Source: Tremella fuciformis (taxonomy: Eukaryota; Basidiomycota; Tremellomycetes; Tremellales; Tremellaceae). Taken from it: a stretch of DNA of 64,000 nucleotides. Shown here in pieces: positions 1 to 47,573 of this stretch. The position numbers and the translations under genes were made by a program. Position 1 is the first letter of the stretch. Every line of letters starts with the position of its first letter. The stretch lies in contig CP136498.1 in assembly GCA_032768795.1 (NCBI GenBank), positions 1 to 64,000 on the forward strand, given 5' to 3'. A model generated the notes under the pieces. The model saw nothing but the letters and a program-made list of their open reading frames with translations. It made no database searches and was not told the DNA's origin.

Positions 1-253
1 TAACCCCTAACCCCCTAACCCCCTAACCCCCTAACCCCCTAACCCCCTAACCCCCTAACCCCCTAACCCCCTAACCCCCTAACCCCCTAACCCCCTAACC
101 CCCTAACCCCCTAACCCCCTAACCCCCTAACCCCCTAACCCCCTAACCCCCTAACCCCCTAACCCCCTAACCCCCTAACCCCCTAACCCCTAACCCCCTA
201 ACCCCCTAACCCCCTAACCCCCTAACCCCCTAACCCCCTAACCCCCTAACCCC
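1..253. repeat. Telomere, (TAACCCCC)n C-strand
   Basis: About 32 head-to-tail copies of TAACCCCC, so the G-strand repeat is TTAGGGGG and the chromosome end lies to the left. A few units are the 4-C variant TAACCCC: the first unit, one near 186, and the last unit at 247-253, which abuts the element. This repeat is known from Cryptococcus and relatives. The array is uninterrupted. Confidence 0.98.
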
Positions 254-330
254 TAAGGCCTAGGCTGTGCAGATGACTCATCTCCTCCCTGAGATCCCAC
301 CGTGCCATGCGGGTTGCTCAGGGCCGGCCC

Positions 331-489
331 ATTGGTGACAAAGCAAGTCACACGCCACCATAGCTTGAGGCATTTATCTCATTGGCCAGGCTAAATCCCT
401 CACTCGAGGCATTTCTCTCATTGGCCAGAGCAAGCGGCAGCTGACCAATCAGCCAGGCCTCGCCTCCACCTCGGCTCATAGCATAAATA
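331..489 (+). promoter_or_regulatory. CCAAT-box cluster and TATA-like promoter of unit 1
   Basis: CCAAT pentamers occur at 331-335, 381-385 and 420-424 (all on the minus strand) and at 445-449 (plus strand). The 381 and 420 boxes lie inside a direct duplication of about 26 bp with a 39-40 bp step (GAGGCATTT...CTCATTGGCCAG). A TATA-like CATAAATA follows at 482-489, and then a pyrimidine-rich CTCACTCACTCACCA stretch suited to transcription initiation. This is the architecture of an RNA polymerase II promoter firing toward the centromere. Confidence 0.6.
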
Positions 490-649
490 CCCCCCTCTCC
501 TTCTCCTCCTTCTCCATCCATCTCACTCACTCACTCACCATCCTTGGTAGGAGTCCACTCTTCTCTTGCTGCAGCTGCTGACCACACAGACACACCTACT
601 CAACACACTCAACCTCGTACACCAGCACATCTGTCTCTTTCTCTGCACA

Positions 650-1332
650 GTGAGTCTCTCCTTCCCCCCTCCCTTCCCCCCTCCTCCTCTCTTCCCCATC
701 CCTCCTCTGTCTACCATACACTCCAGGCAGTGTTTTGGGGAGCTCTCATCACCTACACCCTTCCAAGCCTGGATCCTGCATGCCTCTCCAGATATGTCTG
801 TGACCATTGGCCTCTGCACCAGCACCTATCACAAGCCACTCTCATGTTGGCCTCTGTGCATGGGTTTGAGGAAATGTAGCTCTGTTGAGATGTCTCCTGC
901 TGAGGCTGGCTCATGCTCTGCGCTGGTCATGCACCTTGTCTGCCACTTCACAAGGACAGCTCTTTGCTGGGTCTGAAAGAACATTGGCTTCAACAGCCTT
1001 TGTCTCTTGTGCAGCCAGTAGGAGTGGGTCTGGGCAATAGACAATGACATCAGTAACAAAACACACACCTGTATGGGAACAGGCCTCAGAGTGTAATGCT
1101 CTGAGGTCAGACAGAGGCTGGTGATCTGCTCTGGCATGACCTACAGTAAGGGGTTATGCTGGTTCAGATTGCTGGACAAGGATGGCTGGGTTGGGCTTCT
1201 CTATGAGGCCCTTCATCAGACTGACCAGGTTGACTCAAAAGTCTTCATTGGCACTGCCCTGTGTGCAGTTACAGTTGGAATCACAATCATTACTAACTGT
1301 TTCTCTTATCTTGGGCTTCACTTACTTAGCAG
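650..1332 (+). other. Probable spliced 5' leader of the OTU gene, unit 1
   Basis: A consensus donor GTGAGT lies at 650-655, just after a likely first exon. A perfect TACTAAC branch site lies at 1291-1297, followed by a pyrimidine-rich tract and acceptors TAG (ending 1329) and CAG (ending 1332), ten bases before the start codon at 1342. A further possible donor, GTAAGG, is near 1146, so the interval may hold one long intron or two shorter ones. Nothing in it reads as a long protein. Both full units retain the same sequence. Confidence 0.45.
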
Positions 1333-1341
1333 ACCACAGCC

Positions 1342-3582
1342 ATGGCTCCAACTCGAACTCTGCGGCGGTCGGCTCGACTCAACCCTATTCAGCGTACTAG
1401 GATGATCATGGACTGTGTCCTGATTACTAGGAGGCAGCCACAGCCTCTTCTGGTCGCTTCAGAGCTTCCTCAGCCATCTCCCATTACACATAGATCATTG
1501 TCTCCAGCCTTATCCACCAATGCACCATCCTCAAATGACGATTACCGCGAAAAGTCTGTCGATGATGGCGAGACATTAGCAGCACTTCCAGCCAGCTCAG
1601 CACAAGTTCAATCGGTTACAGCACTGCCCAGTGATCGATTCAATCATCTCCTCGATAATCTATTACCCAAGGATTACGATCTCGACAAATATGAATACGC
1701 TCTTACGCCAAACGCTTACGACCGACGCTTCGGTAATCCCTCGGCCCTTGTCCAGCTAGTATCTCACATGCCTCGGACATTACCATCGATTGCATTAGGC
1801 GACGGTCCACGGCAATGGACTTTACTTGCATCGAGCGTCCACCAGATATGGGTCAAGACATCGATCAAAGAAGGCTTCTTCAAGGCTTTGAAGCAATGGC
1901 AAATAGCTCAGCCTGGCAAGTATGCTAATCAAGGCAGTATCGGTCGCGTCATAGTCCCAGCCAGACTCTTTACAGAGTGCCTCAGAGCAGCCAAATGCAG
2001 AGTTATGTATTTGAAAGCCTACGGGCAGAAAATGCCATTACTGGAGCGATTCATGCCTTACGAATTAGCCCAAGTCGATCATCCGCTTGCAAAGTACAAC
2101 TCTTGGGACATCGGCAGGTCATTTGAGTCGCCTTTCATTTGGCTATTCTCTCCGATTACAGCTGGATCAACCTTCGACACGTATCCGATGATTATACCAG
2201 CCTCACTCGATTACGGATCGGTCCAGGCTCAACTTCGATACAACAATACCGACTTTGCGATCAAGATATACCCTCGGCTTGTCCATGCTATCAAATCACT
2301 CAATAGCCAGCTTGGTAATGCCATTCCCACTACAACTCGAGGTGTCCGGACACAAGGCAAATCGACAATGGAAGTAATACAAGCACTATCCGGATTACCT
2401 CAGAACGAATTAGAAGGCCTTCGGATTGAAGTCACAGTACAAGCACCAACACTTGCAGCAGCCTTTGCAATGGTAAAAGCGACGCCATTCCTCGATCCAG
2501 CCTTTTGGCTTAACCCGGATCGCTTCGATTCCCGGCTCGAATACCTCAAGCTTGATGCAAAGATAATGACGGTGCAGACATTACTTGCAAATGCCAACTG
2601 GATGCACGAGCAAGCTACTCTATTGGGTCATCTGCAGGGCCAAAACACCGGCAAACCGACTCGATTACAAGTGCAATGCCTTGTTGATCTGCTTGCGGCA
2701 ATTGGCTGGAATAAAGGATTACGAGCTGTCACCAAATCATTAGCAGCCAATGCTTGGTGGTCAAATACCTCGGAGATTACAACAGAGCTTGGAATACTTG
2801 ACCATCTCAATGCAACATTCAATACAAATGATCGGCGTAATCAGTTGATACAACTTATACGGTCGAAATCGACATACGGCTACATTCCTTGTCAAATCAA
2901 CCCTACCGATTCATCTCACCGATATCAAATGAACAACAAGGAGTATATGGCTCTTCGATGTGGCAATAAGCATTGTCGGCACAAAATCAACCGGAGCCAA
3001 GCTATGCGATGGTTTGCCCAGCTTGTCACCGATGGCATAGTACCACGAGCCGAAGTAGGCTATTCGGAGCCGGCAGCATTACCTCAAGTCTCAACCCAGC
3101 AGGAAGCGACTCAGCCATTTGTCCAAGGACGATTCGAATTGCCAAGTCGTAATCAGCTTACTCGACTTGACGGTCAGCCGGTATTCTACCGTACGAACTG
3201 GATCAAGGGAGATGGTAATTGCATGTTCGCCGCAATAGTCAAAGCACTTGGAATACCACGCTTGACACATCTCGGAGCAAGGCGGGCAGCAGTGGCTTAT
3301 GCTCGGAAGTTCCAAGATGACTTCTTCCCATTTCTAGAGAGTCAAAGCGAGTCAATGGGTGCATACCTCAGGCGTATGGGCAAGGCGGGGACATGGGGTG
3401 ACGACTTGATGCTTAAGGCCTTGAGTGGGGCATACAATGTCAAGATCAGAGTCTACAAGCGGCATAATGATGGCAGCCATCAGTGGTATGAGATAGGAGA
3501 AGGTGAGGATAGTATTGGCCTTTACTTAGCAAGTGAGCATTATGAGAACTTAGTAACTGCAGATGAGTTGTTTGGTAGATAG
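1342..3582 (+). CDS. 746-aa protein with C-terminal OTU cysteine protease domain, copy 1
   Basis: The only long gene of the element. The ATG at 1342 follows an acceptor-like CAG and sits in a CAGCCATGG context. Residues 1-610 match no family I recognise. The N terminus is basic (RRSAR) and there is a weak CxxxxC pair near residue 550. Residues about 610-746 form an OTU (ovarian tumour) fold: GDGNC with Asp624 and nucleophile Cys627, a central WGDDLMLKALS helix and strand region, and SEHY with catalytic His733. OTU enzymes cut ubiquitin from proteins, and OTU domains also occur inside some Helitron and non-LTR retroelement polyproteins. All triad positions are present, so activity is plausible. 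There is no signal peptide or membrane segment. The fold assignment is strong; the role in the element is unknown. It could be a host-directed deubiquitinase or a polyprotein-type processing protease. Confidence 0.88.
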   Translation: MAPTRTLRRSARLNPIQRTRMIMDCVLITRRQPQPLLVASELPQPSPITHRSLSPALSTNAPSSNDDYREKSVDDGETLAALPASSAQVQSVTALPSDRFNHLLDNLLPKDYDLDKYEYALTPNAYDRRFGNPSALVQLVSHMPRTLPSIALGDGPRQWTLLASSVHQIWVKTSIKEGFFKALKQWQIAQPGKYANQGSIGRVIVPARLFTECLRAAKCRVMYLKAYGQKMPLLERFMPYELAQVDHPLAKYNSWDIGRSFESPFIWLFSPITAGSTFDTYPMIIPASLDYGSVQAQLRYNNTDFAIKIYPRLVHAIKSLNSQLGNAIPTTTRGVRTQGKSTMEVIQALSGLPQNELEGLRIEVTVQAPTLAAAFAMVKATPFLDPAFWLNPDRFDSRLEYLKLDAKIMTVQTLLANANWMHEQATLLGHLQGQNTGKPTRLQVQCLVDLLAAIGWNKGLRAVTKSLAANAWWSNTSEITTELGILDHLNATFNTNDRRNQLIQLIRSKSTYGYIPCQINPTDSSHRYQMNNKEYMALRCGNKHCRHKINRSQAMRWFAQLVTDGIVPRAEVGYSEPAALPQVSTQQEATQPFVQGRFELPSRNQLTRLDGQPVFYRTNWIKGDGNCMFAAIVKALGIPRLTHLGARRAAVAYARKFQDDFFPFLESQSESMGAYLRRMGKAGTWGDDLMLKALSGAYNVKIRVYKRHNDGSHQWYEIGEGEDSIGLYLASEHYENLVTADELFGR

Positions 3583-3619
3583 ATGCATTTGACTCTCTCA
3601 GTTCTCAAGTAAGTGAGAA

Positions 3620-5250
3620 ATGAGTCAGAGATTCGGAACCAGCTTGTCAAACTGTGTATAGTAATGGGCATTAGACTTGCGAAATAAATTTATCCAACTG
3701 CGGAAAAAGCTCCAAGGGTCCCCCCTTGGGCAGTTGTGCCGGGTTACGGGTGGGGATAGCTCCGCCAGTTTTGCTCCAATTAGAAAACAAGTGAGAGATT
3801 TGGAATCAGCTCGTCAAATTGTGTATGCTAATGGGCATTAGACTTGCCAAATAATTTTATCCAGCTGCGGAAAAAGCTCCAAGGGTCCCCCCTTGGGCAG
3901 TCAAGCTTGGTTACGTGTGGGGATAGCTCGGCCAGTTTCGCTCCGTTCAGAAAACGGGTGAGAGATTCAGAATCAGCTCTTTGAATAGAGTATAGTACCA
4001 ACCATTAGACTTGCAGAATAAATTTATCCAGCGCCGGAAAAAGCTGCAAGGGTCCCCCCTTGCGCAGGTGTGCTCGGTTACGGGAGGGGGTAGCTCCGCC
4101 AGTTCTGCTCCGATCGGAAAACGGGTGAGAGATTCAGAATCAGCTCGCCAAACTGAGTATAGTAGTAAGCATTACAATCGAAGAAGACAGTCATCAAGGG
4201 GGGCAAAAGTCAATAAGCCATTTGACAGACATAAGATCCAAAAAGTGTACCCCAACCAGGAATCGAACCTAGTCACAGCCAAATTAGGGCAGACAGCACC
4301 CTACAGCGGGCCGAAATGACACTAACCACTGTGTCAAACCAGAGGGGTGAAGGTCTGCTGAGTTTTACTTGCCTATATTGGGTTACACATAATACATGCT
4401 AAGTGGCACATAGCTCCGCCACTTTTGCTCCGATCAGTAAATGGGTTAGAGATTCTTAATCAGCTTGTCAAATAGTGTATAGTGCCGACCATTAGACTCG
4501 CAGAATAAATTTATCCAGCGCCGGAAAAAGCTGCAATGGTCCCCCCTTGGGCAGACGTACTGGTCTTTCGGAGGGATTAACTCCGCCAGTTCTGCTCTGA
4601 TCTGGTAATGGGTTAGAGATTCTTGATCAGCTCGTCAAATAGTGTATAGTACCAACCTTTAGACTTGCAGAATAAATTTATCCAGCACCGGAAAAAGCTA
4701 CAAGGGTCCCCCCTTGGGCAGTCGAGCTGGGTTACGGGTGGGGTTAGCTCGGCCAGTTTTGCTCCGATTGGAAAACGAGTGAGAGATTTGGAATCAGCTC
4801 GTCAAACTGAGTATAGTACCAACCATTAGACTTGCAGAATAATTTTATCCAGCACCGGAAAAAGCTACAAGGGTCCCCCCTTGGGCAGTCGAGCTGGGTT
4901 ACGGGTGGGGATAGCTCGGCCAGTTTTGCTCCGATCGGAAAACGAGTGAGAGATTTGGAATCAGCTCGTCAAACTGAGTATAGTACCAACCATTAGACTT
5001 GCAGAATAATTTTATCCAGCACCGGAAAAAGCTACAAGGGTCCCCCCTTGGGCAGACGTACTGGTCTTTCGGAGGGATTAACTCCGCCAGTTTCGCTCCG
5101 ATCCGGGAATGGGTTAGAGATTCTTAATCGGCTCGTCAAATAGAGTATAGTAGCACCCTTCACATCACAAAAATAATTTCACTCACAACCAGCAAACTCC
5201 AAGGGTCCCCCCTTGGGCCATATGAGCTCCAAGGGTCCCCCCTTGGACCG
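3620..5250 (+). repeat. 167-bp subrepeat array with 18-nt hairpins, unit 1
   Basis: Degenerate tandem repeats follow the OTU gene. Each carries TTAGACTTGC, AATAAA or AATAATTTTATCC, GGAAAAAGCT, the hairpin CCAAGGGTCCCCCCTTGG and GCTCCGCCAGTTTTGCTCCG. Hairpins start at 3712, 3879, 4046, 4533, 4700, 4867, 5034, 5199 and 5229, so the step is exactly 167 bp for five of eight intervals. The 487-bp interval (4046-4533) contains a tRNA-like insert. The hairpin has 7-bp arms and a 4-nt loop, and the 4046 copy swaps its outermost pair from C-G to G-C. The AATAAA motifs could serve as poly(A) signals for the OTU mRNA. Confidence 0.9.
4240..4348 (-). tRNA. tRNA-like Pol III unit in unit 1 (isotype unresolved)
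   Basis: On the minus strand there is an A box (TGACACAGTGG at 4336-4326) forming a 6-bp D-type stem TGACAC/GTGTCA. A perfect B box GGTTCGATTCC lies at 4269-4259 inside a 5-bp T-arm, and a TTTTT terminator at 4244-4240. The A-to-B spacing is 56 nt, longer than an intron-less tRNA. The 3' acceptor strand TTGGGGT (4255-4249) could pair only five bases with ACCCC near 4348, and seven extra bases then separate it from the D arm. No anticodon arm folds convincingly. It is best read as a degenerate tRNA gene or a tRNA-derived Pol III unit. Confidence 0.45.
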
Positions 5251-5537
5251 TTTTACATGAAGTCAGGGATGCATGCGAGAGTCATCCCAGATATATTTGG
5301 GACCATATTAGGCTACTTACTTCGACAATCAACTCAATATTCCAATTACTGACCGCGTCACAGCCAACCAAAGTCAAATACCCAGCCAACTTTGGATGCC
5401 CGTAAATCCGTCAGTTTTTACCCGATCGGGAAGATCATTACATTTACGAATAGCTCTTTTGTCGAACTTTTTGAATCCAAAAAAAAATTTCAAAAAATCT
5501 CGATGCGCGAGAAAGTCCCCCCCCCAGGACCTGCCTG
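5251..5537 (+). other. 3' terminal region of unit 1
   Basis: Non-coding. It holds an A-rich run (about 5479-5497), a perfect 5-bp stem TCTCG/CGAGA with loop ATGCG at 5498-5512, a C-run, and the terminal CCTG that meets the telomeric seed. The same end is conserved in unit 2 and, with substitutions, in truncated unit 3 (hairpin 11,468-11,482). The 3' end is therefore fixed while the 5' end varies. Confidence 0.6.
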
Positions 5538-5552
5538 TAACCCCCTAACCCC
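5538..5552. repeat. Interstitial telomeric seed between units 1 and 2
   Basis: One TAACCCCC followed by one TAACCCC, then TAAGG of unit 2. The same variant order precedes unit 1 at the end of the telomere (239-253). Confidence 0.95.
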
Positions 5553-5629
5553 TAAGGCCTAGGCTGTGCAGATGACTCATCTCCTCCCTGAGATCCCACC
5601 GTGCCATGCGGGTTGCTCAGGGCCGGCCC

Positions 5630-5788
5630 ATTGGTGACAAAGCAAGTCACACGCCACCATAGCTTGAGGCATTTATCTCATTGGCCAGGCTAAATCCCTC
5701 ACTCGAGGCATTTCTCTCATTGGCCAGAGCAAGCGGCAGCTGACCAATCAGCCAGGCCTCGCCTCCACCTCGGCTCATAGCATAAATA
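5630..5788 (+). promoter_or_regulatory. CCAAT-box cluster and TATA-like promoter of unit 2
   Basis: Identical copy of the unit 1 promoter: CCAAT boxes at 5630-5634, 5680-5684, 5719-5723 and 5744-5748, and CATAAATA at 5781-5788. Its presence inside the array means the internal OTU gene should be transcribable independently of the terminal one. Confidence 0.6.
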
Positions 5789-5948
5789 CCCCCCTCTCCT
5801 TCTCCTCCTTCTCCATCCATCTCACTCACTCACTCACCATCCTTGGTAGGAGTCCACTCTTCTCTTGCTGCAGCTGCTGACCACACAGACACACCTACTC
5901 AACACACTCAACCTCGTACACCAGCACATCTGTCTCTTTCTCTGCACA

Positions 5949-6631
5949 GTGAGTCTCTCCTTCCCCCCTCCCTTCCCCCCTCCTCCTCTCTTCCCCATCC
6001 CTCCTCTGTCTACCATACACTCCAGGCAGTGTTTTGGGGAGCTCTCATCACCTACACCCTTCCAAGCCTGGATCCTGCATGCCTCTCCAGATATGTCTGT
6101 GACCATTGGCCTCTGCACCAGCACCTATCACAAGCCACTCTCATGTTGGCCTCTGTGCATGGGTTTGAGGAAATGTAGCTCTGTTGAGATGTCTCCTGCT
6201 GAGGCTGGCTCATGCTCTGCGCTGGTCATGCACCTTGTCTGCCACTTCACAAGGACAGCTCTTTGCTGGGTCTGAAAGAACATTGGCTTCAACAGCCTTT
6301 GTCTCTTGTGCAGCCAGTAGGAGTGGGTCTGGGCAATAGACAATGACATCAGTAACAAAACACACACCTGTATGGGAACAGGCCTCAGAGTGTAATGCTC
6401 TGAGGTCAGACAGAGGCTGGTGATCTGCTCTGGCATGACCTACAGTAAGGGGTTATGCTGGTTCAGATTGCTGGACAAGGATGGCTGGGTTGGGCTTCTC
6501 TATGAGGCCCTTCATCAGACTGACCAGGTTGACTCAAAAGTCTTCATTGGCACTGCCCTGTGTGCAGTTACAGTTGGAATCACAATCATTACTAACTGTT
6601 TCTCTTATCTTGGGCTTCACTTACTTAGCAG
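5949..6631 (+). other. Probable spliced 5' leader of the OTU gene, unit 2
   Basis: Copy of the unit 1 leader with donor GTGAGT at 5949, TACTAAC at 6590-6596 and acceptor CAG ending at 6631. The intron-like sequence is retained. Confidence 0.45.
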
Positions 6632-6640
6632 ACCACAGCC

Positions 6641-8881
6641 ATGGCTCCAACTCGAACTCTGCGGCGGTCGGCTCGACTCAACCCTATTCAGCGTACTAGG
6701 ATGATCATGGACTGTGTCCTGATTACTAGGAGGCAGCCACAGCCTCTTCTGGTCGCTTCAGAGCTTCCTCAGCCATCTCCCATTACACATAGATCATTGT
6801 CTCCAGCCTTATCCACCAATGCACCATCCTCAAATGACGATTACCGCGAAAAGTCTGTCGATGATGGCGAGACATTAGCAGCACTTCCAGCCAGCTCAGC
6901 ACAAGTTCAATCGGTTACAGCACTGCCCAGTGATCGATTCAATCATCTCCTCGATAATCTATTACCCAAGGATTACGATCTCGACAAATATGAATACGCT
7001 CTTACGCCAAACGCTTACGACCGACGCTTCGGTAATCCCTCGGCCCTTGTCCAGCTAGTATCTCACATGCCTCGGACATTACCATCGATTGCATTAGGCG
7101 ACGGTCCACGGCAATGGACTTTACTTGCATCGAGCGTCCACCAGATATGGGTCAAGACATCGATCAAAGAAGGCTTCTTCAAGGCTTTGAAGCAATGGCA
7201 AATAGCTCAGCCTGGCAAGTATGCTAATCAAGGCAGTATCGGTCGCGTCATAGTCCCAGCCAGACTCTTTACAGAGTGCCTCAGAGCAGCCAAATGCAGA
7301 GTTATGTATTTGAAAGCCTACGGGCAGAAAATGCCATTACTGGAGCGATTCATGCCTTACGAATTAGCCCAAGTCGATCATCCGCTTGCAAAGTACAACT
7401 CTTGGGACATCGGCAGGTCATTTGAGTCGCCTTTCATTTGGCTATTCTCTCCGATTACAGCTGGATCAACCTTCGACACGTATCCGATGATTATACCAGC
7501 CTCACTCGATTACGGATCGGTCCAGGCTCAACTTCGATACAACAATACCGACTTTGCGATCAAGATATACCCTCGGCTTGTCCATGCTATCAAATCACTC
7601 AATAGCCAGCTTGGTAATGCCATTCCCACTACAACTCGAGGTGTCCGGACACAAGGCAAATCGACAATGGAAGTAATACAAGCACTATCCGGATTACCTC
7701 AGAACGAATTAGAAGGCCTTCGGATTGAAGTCACAGTACAAGCACCAACACTTGCAGCAGCCTTTGCAATGGTAAAAGCGACGCCATTCCTCGATCCAGC
7801 CTTTTGGCTTAACCCGGATCGCTTCGATTCCCGGCTCGAATACCTCAAGCTTGATGCAAAGATAATGACGGTGCAGACATTACTTGCAAATGCCAACTGG
7901 ATGCACGAGCAAGCTACTCTATTGGGTCATCTGCAGGGCCAAAACACCGGCAAACCGACTCGATTACAAGTGCAATGCCTTGTTGATCTGCTTGCGGCAA
8001 TTGGCTGGAATAAAGGATTACGAGCTGTCACCAAATCATTAGCAGCCAATGCTTGGTGGTCAAATACCTCGGAGATTACAACAGAGCTTGGAATACTTGA
8101 CCATCTCAATGCAACATTCAATACAAATGATCGGCGTAATCAGTTGATACAACTTATACGGTCGAAATCGACATACGGCTACATTCCTTGTCAAATCAAC
8201 CCTACCGATTCATCTCACCGATATCAAATGAACAACAAGGAGTATATGGCTCTTCGATGTGGCAATAAGCATTGTCGGCACAAAATCAACCGGAGCCAAG
8301 CTATGCGATGGTTTGCCCAGCTTGTCACCGATGGCATAGTACCACGAGCCGAAGTAGGCTATTCGGAGCCGGCAGCATTACCTCAAGTCTCAACCCAGCA
8401 GGAAGCGACTCAGCCATTTGTCCAAGGACGATTCGAATTGCCAAGTCGTAATCAGCTTACTCGACTTGACGGTCAGCCGGTATTCTACCGTACGAACTGG
8501 ATCAAGGGAGATGGTAATTGCATGTTCGCCGCAATAGTCAAAGCACTTGGAATACCACGCTTGACACATCTCGGAGCAAGGCGGGCAGCAGTGGCTTATG
8601 CTCGGAAGTTCCAAGATGACTTCTTCCCATTTCTAGAGAGTCAAAGCGAGTCAATGGGTGCATACCTCAGGCGTATGGGCAAGGCGGGGACATGGGGTGA
8701 CGACTTGATGCTTAAGGCCTTGAGTGGGGCATACAATGTCAAGATCAGAGTCTACAAGCGGCATAATGATGGCAGCCATCAGTGGTATGAGATAGGAGAA
8801 GGTGAGGATAGTATTGGCCTTTACTTAGCAAGTGAGCATTATGAGAACTTAGTAACTGCAGATGAGTTGTTTGGTAGATAG
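6641..8881 (+). CDS. 746-aa protein with C-terminal OTU cysteine protease domain, copy 2
   Basis: The amino-acid sequence is identical to the copy at 1342-3582, with the same start context, the same Asp624/Cys627/His733 OTU residues and the same stop. Perfect identity including flanking non-coding sequence implies very recent duplication or ongoing gene conversion, rather than separate selection on the protein. Neither copy has a frameshift, so both are potentially expressed. Confidence 0.88.
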   Translation: MAPTRTLRRSARLNPIQRTRMIMDCVLITRRQPQPLLVASELPQPSPITHRSLSPALSTNAPSSNDDYREKSVDDGETLAALPASSAQVQSVTALPSDRFNHLLDNLLPKDYDLDKYEYALTPNAYDRRFGNPSALVQLVSHMPRTLPSIALGDGPRQWTLLASSVHQIWVKTSIKEGFFKALKQWQIAQPGKYANQGSIGRVIVPARLFTECLRAAKCRVMYLKAYGQKMPLLERFMPYELAQVDHPLAKYNSWDIGRSFESPFIWLFSPITAGSTFDTYPMIIPASLDYGSVQAQLRYNNTDFAIKIYPRLVHAIKSLNSQLGNAIPTTTRGVRTQGKSTMEVIQALSGLPQNELEGLRIEVTVQAPTLAAAFAMVKATPFLDPAFWLNPDRFDSRLEYLKLDAKIMTVQTLLANANWMHEQATLLGHLQGQNTGKPTRLQVQCLVDLLAAIGWNKGLRAVTKSLAANAWWSNTSEITTELGILDHLNATFNTNDRRNQLIQLIRSKSTYGYIPCQINPTDSSHRYQMNNKEYMALRCGNKHCRHKINRSQAMRWFAQLVTDGIVPRAEVGYSEPAALPQVSTQQEATQPFVQGRFELPSRNQLTRLDGQPVFYRTNWIKGDGNCMFAAIVKALGIPRLTHLGARRAAVAYARKFQDDFFPFLESQSESMGAYLRRMGKAGTWGDDLMLKALSGAYNVKIRVYKRHNDGSHQWYEIGEGEDSIGLYLASEHYENLVTADELFGR

Positions 8882-8918
8882 ATGCATTTGACTCTCTCAG
8901 TTCTCAAGTAAGTGAGAA

Positions 8919-10549
8919 ATGAGTCAGAGATTCGGAACCAGCTTGTCAAACTGTGTATAGTAATGGGCATTAGACTTGCGAAATAAATTTATCCAACTGC
9001 GGAAAAAGCTCCAAGGGTCCCCCCTTGGGCAGTTGTGCCGGGTTACGGGTGGGGATAGCTCCGCCAGTTTTGCTCCAATTAGAAAACAAGTGAGAGATTT
9101 GGAATCAGCTCGTCAAATTGTGTATGCTAATGGGCATTAGACTTGCCAAATAATTTTATCCAGCTGCGGAAAAAGCTCCAAGGGTCCCCCCTTGGGCAGT
9201 CAAGCTTGGTTACGTGTGGGGATAGCTCGGCCAGTTTCGCTCCGTTCAGAAAACGGGTGAGAGATTCAGAATCAGCTCTTTGAATAGAGTATAGTACCAA
9301 CCATTAGACTTGCAGAATAAATTTATCCAGCGCCGGAAAAAGCTGCAAGGGTCCCCCCTTGCGCAGGTGTGCTCGGTTACGGGAGGGGGTAGCTCCGCCA
9401 GTTCTGCTCCGATCGGAAAACGGGTGAGAGATTCAGAATCAGCTCGCCAAACTGAGTATAGTAGTAAGCATTACAATCGAAGAAGACAGTCATCAAGGGG
9501 GGCAAAAGTCAATAAGCCATTTGACAGACATAAGATCCAAAAAGTGTACCCCAACCAGGAATCGAACCTAGTCACAGCCAAATTAGGGCAGACAGCACCC
9601 TACAGCGGGCCGAAATGACACTAACCACTGTGTCAAACCAGAGGGGTGAAGGTCTGCTGAGTTTTACTTGCCTATATTGGGTTACACATAATACATGCTA
9701 AGTGGCACATAGCTCCGCCACTTTTGCTCCGATCAGTAAATGGGTTAGAGATTCTTAATCAGCTTGTCAAATAGTGTATAGTGCCGACCATTAGACTCGC
9801 AGAATAAATTTATCCAGCGCCGGAAAAAGCTGCAATGGTCCCCCCTTGGGCAGACGTACTGGTCTTTCGGAGGGATTAACTCCGCCAGTTCTGCTCTGAT
9901 CTGGTAATGGGTTAGAGATTCTTGATCAGCTCGTCAAATAGTGTATAGTACCAACCTTTAGACTTGCAGAATAAATTTATCCAGCACCGGAAAAAGCTAC
10001 AAGGGTCCCCCCTTGGGCAGTCGAGCTGGGTTACGGGTGGGGTTAGCTCGGCCAGTTTTGCTCCGATTGGAAAACGAGTGAGAGATTTGGAATCAGCTCG
10101 TCAAACTGAGTATAGTACCAACCATTAGACTTGCAGAATAATTTTATCCAGCACCGGAAAAAGCTACAAGGGTCCCCCCTTGGGCAGTCGAGCTGGGTTA
10201 CGGGTGGGGATAGCTCGGCCAGTTTTGCTCCGATCGGAAAACGAGTGAGAGATTTGGAATCAGCTCGTCAAACTGAGTATAGTACCAACCATTAGACTTG
10301 CAGAATAATTTTATCCAGCACCGGAAAAAGCTACAAGGGTCCCCCCTTGGGCAGACGTACTGGTCTTTCGGAGGGATTAACTCCGCCAGTTTCGCTCCGA
10401 TCCGGGAATGGGTTAGAGATTCTTAATCGGCTCGTCAAATAGAGTATAGTAGCACCCTTCACATCACAAAAATAATTTCACTCACAACCAGCAAACTCCA
10501 AGGGTCCCCCCTTGGGCCATATGAGCTCCAAGGGTCCCCCCTTGGACCG
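8919..10549 (+). repeat. 167-bp subrepeat array with 18-nt hairpins, unit 2
   Basis: Same array as in unit 1, shifted by 5299 bp. Hairpins start at 9011, 9178, 9345, 9832, 9999, 10,166, 10,333, 10,498 and 10,528. Confidence 0.9.
9539..9647 (-). tRNA. tRNA-like Pol III unit in unit 2
   Basis: Identical copy of the unit at 4240-4348, with B box at 9568-9558, A box at 9635-9625 and T-run terminator at 9543-9539. The folding problems are the same: incomplete acceptor stem and no clear anticodon arm. Confidence 0.45.
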
Positions 10550-10836
10550 TTTTACATGAAGTCAGGGATGCATGCGAGAGTCATCCCAGATATATTTGGG
10601 ACCATATTAGGCTACTTACTTCGACAATCAACTCAATATTCCAATTACTGACCGCGTCACAGCCAACCAAAGTCAAATACCCAGCCAACTTTGGATGCCC
10701 GTAAATCCGTCAGTTTTTACCCGATCGGGAAGATCATTACATTTACGAATAGCTCTTTTGTCGAACTTTTTGAATCCAAAAAAAAATTTCAAAAAATCTC
10801 GATGCGCGAGAAAGTCCCCCCCCCAGGACCTGCCTG

Positions 10837-10850
10837 TAACCCCCTAACCC
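10837..10850. repeat. Interstitial telomeric seed between unit 2 and truncated unit 3
   Basis: TAACCCCC followed by TAACCC, which runs into CCCTTGGG of unit 3. The C-run is shared between the seed and the hairpin of unit 3, so the exact join is ambiguous by about three bases. Confidence 0.9.
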
Positions 10851-11508
10851 TTGGGCAGGTGTAACGGCTCACGGCTGGGATTAGCTCCGCCGGTTCTGCT
10901 CCGATTGGAAAATGAGTGGGAGATTTGGAATCAGCTCGTCAAACTATGTATAGTAATGGGCATTAGACTTGCCAAATAAATTCATCCAGCGCCAGAAAAA
11001 GCTGCAAGGGTCCCCCCTTGGGCAGGCGTAATGACTTACGGATGGGATTAACTCCGCCAGTTCCGCTCCGATCGTGGAATGGGTTAGAGATTCTTAATCA
11101 GCTCGTCAAATAGAGTATAGTAGCACCCTTCACATCACAAAAATAATTTCACTCACAACCAGCAAACTCCAAGGGTCCCCCCTTGGGCCATATGAGCTCC
11201 AAGGGTCCCCCCTTGGACCGTTTTACGTCAAGTCAGGGATGCATGCGAGAGTCATCCCACATATATTTAGGACCATATTAGGCTACTCTCTTCGACAATT
11301 AACTCAATATTCCAATTATTGATTGCGTCACAGCCAACCAAAGTCAAATACCCAGTCCACTTTGGATGCCCGTAAATCCGTCAGTTGTTACCCGATCGGG
11401 AAGGTCATTACATTTACGAATAGCTTTTTTGTCGAACTTTTTGAATCTAAAAAAAAAGTTTCGAAAATCTCGATGCGCGAGAAAGTCCCCCCCCCCAAAA
11501 CCTCCCTG
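10851..11508 (+). mobile_element. 5'-truncated, diverged unit 3 of the telomere element
   Basis: Corresponds to about 4881-5537 of unit 1: the last few 167-bp subrepeats and the 3' terminus. Hairpins start at 11,004, 11,169 and 11,199. The 153-bp spacing from the truncation point to the first hairpin equals that in unit 1. Scattered substitutions (for example GTTGTTA for GTTTTTA near 11,386) show it is older than units 1 and 2. Promoter, OTU gene and tRNA-like unit are absent. The 5' end falls in the C-run of a hairpin. Confidence 0.85.
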
Positions 11509-11524
11509 TAACCCCCTAACCCCC
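11509..11524. repeat. Interstitial telomeric seed at the array/chromosome junction
   Basis: Two TAACCCCC repeats, the innermost telomeric sequence of the window. They join a kinase gene fragment beginning GAAGAAGCC at 11,525. This marks the site of a former chromosome end. Confidence 0.92.
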
Positions 11525-43251: not shown

Positions 43252-43375
43252 TACGAGTGGCCAGCGGGATCAGAAAATGGCCACTCGGGATCAAATTGAA
43301 AAGTCTCTCGCGACGGCACAGGTTCTTCGATTTGATCCCGAGTGGCCAGCCGGATCGAAAAATGGCCACACACTT
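43252..43375 (-). repeat. Dispersed copy of the palindromic satellite unit
   Basis: Minus-strand orientation relative to the 46.8 kb array. It contains CGAGTGGCCAGCGGGATCAG, then TGGCCACTCGGGATCAAATT, AAGTCTCTCGCGACGGCACA, and a second partial unit starting TTCGATTTGATCCCGAGTGG. About one and a half units. Confidence 0.85.
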
Positions 43376-46807: not shown

Positions 46808-47573
46808 AGTCGTGATCAAATCGAAGAAACCTGTGCCGTCGCGAGTGAGACTTTTCATTTTGATCCCGAGTGCCCATTTTCTGATCCCGCTGGCCACTCG
46901 GAATCAAATTGAAGAAGAGTGAGACTTTTTAATTTGATCCCGAGTGGCCATTTTCTGATCCCGCTGGCCACTCGGAATCAAATCGAACAAACTGTGCCGT
47001 CGCGAGTGAGACTTTTCAATTTGAGCCCGAGTGGCCATTTTCTGATCCCGCGTGGCCACTCGGGATCAAATCAAAGAACCTGTGCCGAGTGAGACTTTTC
47101 AATTTGATCCCGAGTGGCCATTTTCTGATCCCGCTGGCCACTCGGGATCAAATCAATGCCCGTCGCGAGTGAGACTTTTCAATTTGATCCCGAGTGGCCA
47201 TTGTCTGATCCCGCTGGCCACTCGGGATCAAATCAATGCCCGTCGCGAGTGAGACTTTTCAATTTGATCCCGAGTGGCCATTGTCTGATCCCGCTGGCCA
47301 CTCGGGATCAAATCGAAGAACCTGCGCCGAGTGAGACTTTTTAATTTGATACCGAGTGGCCATTTTCTGATCCCGCTGGCCACTCGGGCCCAAATCGAAG
47401 AACCTGCGCCGAGTGAGACTTTTCAATTTGATCCCGAGTGGCCATTTTCTGATCCCGCTGGTCACTCGGGATCAAATCGAAGAACCTGTGCCGAGTGAGA
47501 CTTTTCAATTTGATCCCGAGTGGCCATTTTCTGATCCCGCTGGCCACTCGGGATCAAATTGAACGAACTTTCC
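46808..47573 (+). repeat. 82-bp palindromic satellite, nine units
   Basis: Nine tandem units, with GAGACTTTT at 46,847, 46,921, 47,008, 47,091, 47,171, 47,251, 47,333, 47,415 and 47,497 (steps 74-87, mostly 80-83). Each holds an inverted repeat: TTTGATCCCGAGTGGCCA, a 14-nt loop TTTTCTGATCCCGC, then TGGCCACTCGGGATCAAA. A linker TCGAAGAACCTGTGCCGAGT follows. Transcripts from either strand would form a chain of 18-bp hairpins. The array makes short in-frame repeats in several frames, which I take as incidental. Confidence 0.92.

Follow-up and report, generated by a model that had tools for sequence, protein, structure and literature searches.

The left end of contig C9 (CP136498.1; 862,028 bp) of the basidiomycete Tremella fuciformis (assembly GCA_032768795.1; 28,140,229 bp in 11 contigs) carries a head-to-tail array of an element whose only long gene encodes a 746-amino-acid (aa) protein with an OTU protease domain. 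To our knowledge, telomere elements rely either on a reverse transcriptase (RT; HeT-A, TRAS, MoTeR) or on recombination together with a helicase gene (Y'). The same layout is reached here with neither gene recognisable in the unit. In this study, we report the analysis of the first 64,000 nucleotides of the contig (the window) and of related copies in the rest of the genome. We propose that the units belong to a family of mobile elements that target telomeres, are driven by a Rep_trans-like nickase and have multiplied through recombination between chromosome ends, a reading to which we give close to an even chance.

Structure of the array

The original prediction described three units of one 5.3-kb element lying head to tail between telomere and chromosome, each closed on its centromere side by a two-repeat telomeric seed. 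The head-to-tail arrangement and the seeds were confirmed, each unit ending in ...CTG followed directly by TAACCC. Units 1 and 2, seeds included (254-5552 and 5553-10850), showed 0 differences over 5298 bases, whereas unit 3 (approximately 10848-11524 with its seed) is only an older, 5'-truncated copy of 90.4% identity. The excerpted text of PMC13066641 gives TAACCCCC as the telomere repeat of T. fuciformis, with genome sizes of 23.83-32.48 Mb and 11-19 chromosomes. Contig ends are named below by contig and side (C2L, left end of C2). The features, all on the + strand, are as follows.

1..253, +, terminal telomere, (TAACCCCC)n, C-rich strand (from the sequence)
254..5537, +, body of unit 1; left edge is a 5' truncation capped with telomere repeats (longer copies at C2L and C10R)
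254..540, +, promoter-like 5' region, judged by eye from several ATTGG/CCAAT boxes and a TATA-like CATAAATA near 482-489
1342..3582, +, open reading frame (ORF) of 746 aa, unit 1; ratio of nonsynonymous to synonymous substitution (dN/dS) 0.124 against C2L
1594..3069, +, conserved core domain, residues 85-576, possibly Rep_trans-like (predicted fold, residue pattern)
3205..3498, +, OTU domain, Pfam profile match at residues 622-719
3618..5152, +, 167-bp tandem repeats, about 9 copies, in the 3' non-coding part of unit 1
5496..5537, +, 3' terminal motif: short stem-loop TCTCGATGCGCGAGA, C-tract, AGGACCTGCCTG; last bases resemble subfamily C
5538..5552, +, telomeric seed closing unit 1
5553..10836, +, body of unit 2, identical to unit 1
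6641..8881, +, 746-aa ORF, unit 2
8917..10451, +, 167-bp tandem repeats, unit 2
10837..10850, +, telomeric seed closing unit 2
10851..11508, +, body of unit 3, older 5'-truncated copy, 90% identical
11509..11524, +, telomeric seed closing unit 3, followed by chromosomal sequence

The order within the element is thus promoter-like region, 746-aa ORF, about nine 167-bp repeats, terminal motif and telomere joint. A stretch of approximately 135 bp of the promoter-like region recurs at 75% in the longer 5' ends at C2L and C10R.

Distribution in the genome

An exact 15-mer across the joint of 3' end and telomere, ACCTGCCTGTAACCC, was present in 92 copies in the genome as against 0 for the same word read backward, and its abundance is therefore not due to chance. 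Eighty-nine of these lay no more than 21 kb from a contig end, in forward orientation on the left side of contigs and in reverse orientation on the right; the 3' ends of these terminal copies therefore face the centromere, as had been predicted. Confinement to chromosome ends, checked in this genome, held for the same 89 copies. The other three (C5:360771, C9:414129 and C11:75984) are internal relics of 82-94% identity, two of which retain a seed of about two repeats and one a lone TAACCC. The C9 relic is placed after an end of subfamily B type and a paralogous ORF; internal pieces of paralogous ORFs were located at C4:272-277 kb, C4:372 kb and C9:415-417 kb.

In the end and internal stretches examined, and with a few variants of the end allowed, 82 joints were found on 21 of the 22 contig ends, and the exact 15-mer was absent from the reverse strand of these stretches. 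The remaining end, C7L, bears subfamily B. A terminal telomere was not seen at five ends: C5R and C6R stop within a unit, C6L and C8L begin with N, and C1R, read to within 100 bases of its end, is still inside a unit there. An assembly artefact was judged unlikely because as many as 21 of the 22 ends carry the family, and do so with differing truncations. The interval C4:270000-279000 (L027) also contains internal telomeric seeds in both orientations, along with 167-bp repeats, paralogous ORFs and a fragment resembling OTU, and is possibly an old chromosome-end fusion.

5' truncation and telomere joints

Copies have a common 3' end and variable 5' truncation. Relative to the window unit, the copies at C2L, C10R and C11R extend a further 807, 746 and 85 bp before reaching their own telomere, and the left edge of the window unit, which has 2 nt in common with the telomere repeat, is therefore a truncation and not the true 5' end. 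The length of 5.3 kb proposed for the full unit thus did not hold, the C2L and C10R copies being approximately 750-810 bp longer, and it follows that the whole element has not yet been seen. The 5' extension at L010:189-995 (C2L) and at the C10 right end (L029) is G-rich with repeated GATAAG stretches, and its last 85 bp are found at C11R.

In the window's subfamily, 23 distinct 5' joints adjoin telomere repeats, some of them just one repeat (24 were listed, and the joint at 2266 was excluded as a telomere-like word within the ORF). Sharing of 1-2 nt with the telomere was observed at 18 of the 23, compared with a mean of 10.3 for random placements with the same flanks, in which 18 or more were reached in 1 of 2000 trials. 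Positions in the joint list are offset by a few bases and ambiguous inside the 167-bp repeats; the truncation points were taken from a separate comparison of units. Fourteen of 27 truncation lengths of the main variant, counted manually with diverged variants left out, were below 500 nt, compared with about 2.5 expected under a uniform spread. These 27 include four copies of 12 nt (C10L 1955, C10R 6856, C3R 187 and C3L 9810). The 12-nt copies were dropped as proof of abortive copying: three of the four begin directly at a C-run, and the G-tract complementary to this run is an ideal primer for telomerase; the 12-nt copies therefore do not discriminate between models.

Recombination between chromosome ends

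At C1L, 881-bp units lie in tandem and are identical over the three copies compared. A 7,819-bp run of truncated units in the same order is identical at C1L (3,549-11,367) and C6R, which we take as a sign of a recent exchange of ends, and units of the 4435 type occur at both C10L and C11L. Judged by sequence, identical tandem arrays and identical runs of units on different ends are best explained by recombination between ends and seeds; recombinational amplification of units at ends is described for MoTeR in the excerpted text of PMC7367193.

The encoded protein and its subfamilies

The predicted 746-aa OTU protein was confirmed, with PF02338 matched at residues 622-719 (E=4.3e-12) by a domain with the catalytic Cys and His. 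Pfam matches of the protein were limited to OTU/C65. No RT, restriction-like endonuclease, Gag or helicase match was obtained for it in Pfam, and the six smaller ORFs (at least 80 aa) of unit 1 gave no Pfam match above the cut-off (one at E=0.064), in agreement with the claim that the element lacks RT, Gag and helicase. The gene is intact in a few copies only and is under purifying selection (dN/dS 0.12-0.18).

The statement that the element is built around an OTU protein stands only in part. Within the window's subfamily, conservation of the OTU domain is strong (dN/dS 0.067), and the domain is present in subfamily B and in a fourth variant; it nevertheless forms only the C-terminal part of the protein, and the conserved part of the family is a core of approximately 490 aa upstream of it. 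PF02338 was matched by 6 of 35 homologs, many of which are short or partial gene models, some of which may have lost the domain. Four residues, C517, H526, C540 and C545, are conserved at the end of the core. The core matched no Pfam or NCBIfam family (the best NCBIfam match involved 1 of 36 members, E=0.058) and no sequence among solved structures. With E values of up to 10 admitted, the weak Pfam matches showed no common pattern but were scattered; apart from OTU/C65, the most frequent was Tnp_DNA_bind, matched by 6 of 36 members with a best E of 0.082. The profile phrog_33323 matched 8 of 36 members (best E 0.00027); in the only one of ten members in which it could be placed, it lay near the C-terminal end. 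PADLOC gave no match, and of 20 pattern matches to possible viral relatives none was confirmed.

Subfamily B (C7L, C10L and C10R) has 39-40% protein identity, with the OTU domain in a separate reading stretch (E=1.4e-13 at C7L) and one TGA in the matched core stretch. Subfamily C (C1R, C2R and internal C4) has 38-43% identity; its 936-aa ORF gave no OTU match, and an OTU-like fragment adjoins the internal C4 copies. The fourth variant, at C10:23-25 kb, carries OTU within the same ORF. Subfamilies B and C likewise end directly against TAACCC, B with ...CCCCATA and C with ...GGACGGGCGTG after a long C-tract. The termini of subfamily A (that of the window) and C aligned better than shuffles (5/5000), whereas those of A and B (3456/5000) and of B and C (1126/5000) did not.

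Comparison of the core with Rep_trans initiators

OTU chains took up the result lists of the first structure searches, and the core was therefore folded separately. Among the matches listed by VIA-align, its predicted fold was closest, weakly, to three Rep_trans rolling-circle initiators. Rep_trans proteins are characterised by a two-lobed fold of ten strands and by nicking and strand transfer that depend on metal. In Rep_trans proteins the catalytic Tyr is flanked by basic residues and accompanied by RxE and two further metal-binding acids (PMC4797284). The invariant residues of the core, D, D, [KR]xYx[KR] and RxE, reproduce this catalytic set and its order, as a match of sequence pattern and not of geometry. 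Among alignment rows with a letter at the position, conservation was 30/30 for D113, 29/29 for D115, 35/35 for D256, and 36/36 for each of K308, Y310, R/K312, R361 and E363. From the modelled fold and this residue pattern, we infer that the core may be a divergent single-strand endonuclease of the Rep_trans type.

Several comparisons weigh against this assignment. Neither Foldseek nor the profile-profile comparison of the core with Rep_trans gave it support, and the PF02486 profile was matched by neither the core nor its homologs. When aligned by eye on D256, the further residues R140, A144 and D146 of motif I, strictly conserved in Rep_trans, were not reproduced, position 254 being mostly E, 258 always G and 260 S, T or N. 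The core thus resembles Rep_trans (PF02486)/MOBT relaxases in predicted fold, weakly, and in catalytic residues and their order, and differs in lacking profile-level similarity, in belonging to an element protein of a fungal host, in its fusion to OTU, in its greater length and in C517, H526, C540 and C545. The ICESt3 relaxase nicks CT'AA according to the excerpted text of PMC9371924, and the tetramer CTAA is also present within the telomere repeat CCCCCTAA; this likeness may be a coincidence.

Proposed mechanism and alternative explanations

Under the proposed mechanism, the predicted nickase would cut at the telomeric 3' boundary of the element and allow displacement of a single strand whose 3' tail consists of C-rich telomeric sequence. 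This tail would pair with the G-rich overhang at a second chromosome end. Synthesis from that overhang would fix the 3' end toward the centromere, whereas the 5' end could be truncated at varying points; telomerase would then recap the truncated 5' side. The OTU domain would probably strip ubiquitin-like modifiers at the invaded end or process the element's own protein. Such a role would be a testable reason for a mobile element to carry an OTU deubiquitinase; the same combination is reported for Helentrons in the excerpted text of PMC4067079. If the core is a Rep_trans-like nickase, the family would represent a DNA-only route to the colonisation of chromosome ends and a fungal counterpart of the bacterial plasmid-type initiator. 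No described element of this kind was named in the titles or abstract openings of the literature searched. That the family is the first eukaryotic class of telomere-specific rolling-circle-type elements, with a Rep_trans-like nickase-OTU fusion, the host's telomere repeat as both terminus and target, and addition of single-stranded copies to overhangs with no reverse transcription, is put forward tentatively, as a proposal that may well prove wrong.

In yeast, Y' elements form subtelomeric tandem units with telomere tracts between them and are spread by recombination. A Y'-like repeat maintained by recombination only, through invasion of seeds elsewhere by short telomeres, break-induced replication of the distal units, and erosion with healing, would make the 746-aa protein the product of a passenger subtelomeric gene. 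The units do resemble Y' in being separated by telomere tracts and common to different ends, and the 881-bp units of C1L, the run common to C1L and C6R, the 4435-type units and the 100% identical window units all favour this explanation. So does the excess of joints sharing 1-2 nt with the telomere over the placement control, which recalls the telomerase-healed MoTeR ends of the excerpted PMC7367193. We nevertheless consider it unlikely, as it leaves unaccounted for three subfamilies that each have a telomeric 3' boundary and the terminal bases common to A and C. Strong selection on a gene intact in few copies fits a function of the element itself better, a host role being possible. The unit also differs from Y' in having no helicase match in the 746-aa protein or the six smaller ORFs and in combining a fixed 3' terminal motif with a 5'-truncation series.

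HeT-A, TART and TAHRE, like TRAS and SART, are added head to tail with the 3' end inward and encode Gag and/or RT; the unit has their layout but no Gag or RT match. A non-autonomous telomeric retroelement, MoTeR2- or HeT-A-like, would require an RNA ending in C-rich telomere repeats and an RT acting in trans, the protein being accessory. In the constancy of the 3' end, the varying 5' truncation, the orientation and the telomere joints, the copies match Magnaporthe MoTeR1/MoTeR2 and Fusarium FoTeR, non-LTR retrotransposons of the CRE clade for which the excerpted texts of PMC7367193 and PMC12857005 describe telomere confinement, a distal 5' end, 3' telomere repeats, 5' truncations healed with short seeds, head-to-tail arrays, recombinational amplification and internal relics, MoTeR2 likewise being without the RT region. 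The excess of truncation lengths below 500 nt is also what abortive copying could leave, although short truncations are accounted for by telomerase healing at the C-tract as well. Against a retroelement, the RVT_1 genome scan, in which 150 of 339 candidates were scored, gave no match within the arrays, and two matches less than 20 kb from ends (C1:14159 and C2:3618072) lay inward of the arrays with scores equal to copies elsewhere. Among these scored candidates, no RT-bearing element sharing the 3' end was seen when the 92 copies of the 15-mer were set against RT positions. A Pfam scan covering 30 of 163 ORFs (at least 150 aa) from the end stretches and two internal stretches gave matches that included LTR-type gag/protease, partial RVT_1, RNase-H-like, Helitron_like_N, DEAD/Helicase_C and host-like genes, none of them in a unit; the RT-, gag- and protease-like matches were all outside units. 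In addition, the longest copies contain sequence upstream of the promoter-like region. We regard this explanation as quite unlikely. The units have the MoTeR/FoTeR layout but differ in having no RT or restriction-like endonuclease match, an ORF made of core and OTU, and no RT partner with their 3' end among the scored candidates.

Descent from a rolling-circle Helitron or Helentron whose OTU gene was retained and which came to reside in telomeres appears very improbable. Helentrons encode OTU cysteine proteases besides Rep/helicase, and related elements have a palindrome near the 3' end (excerpted text of PMC4067079). The unit likewise carries OTU and, close to its 3' end, a short stem-loop; a rolling-circle logic is presumed for both, and a Helitron_like_N ORF occurs at C7R. 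That ORF is, however, outside any unit, neither the 746-aa protein nor 10 homologs scanned matched Helitron_like_N (PF14214) or a helicase, the joints are telomeric rather than AT or TT, and the target is telomeric.

Other sequences near the arrays

The C7R ORF (L034:175-1656, - strand; E=4.6e-48) lies a few kb inward of the telomeric array. At the C8 left end, a partial RVT_1 ORF beside a sub-threshold phage-integrase ORF (L016:4690-7126, - strand) is situated just inward of the array and possibly represents a DIRS-like element. An 892-aa ORF with DEAD and Helicase_C matches at the C4 left end (L025:541-3216, - strand; approximately 10.5-13.2 kb) is reminiscent of the telomere-linked helicases in the excerpted text of PMC12857005. 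Within the window, an 82-bp repeat occurs about 8-9 times in tandem at 46843-47568 and in inverted orientation at 43254-43315.

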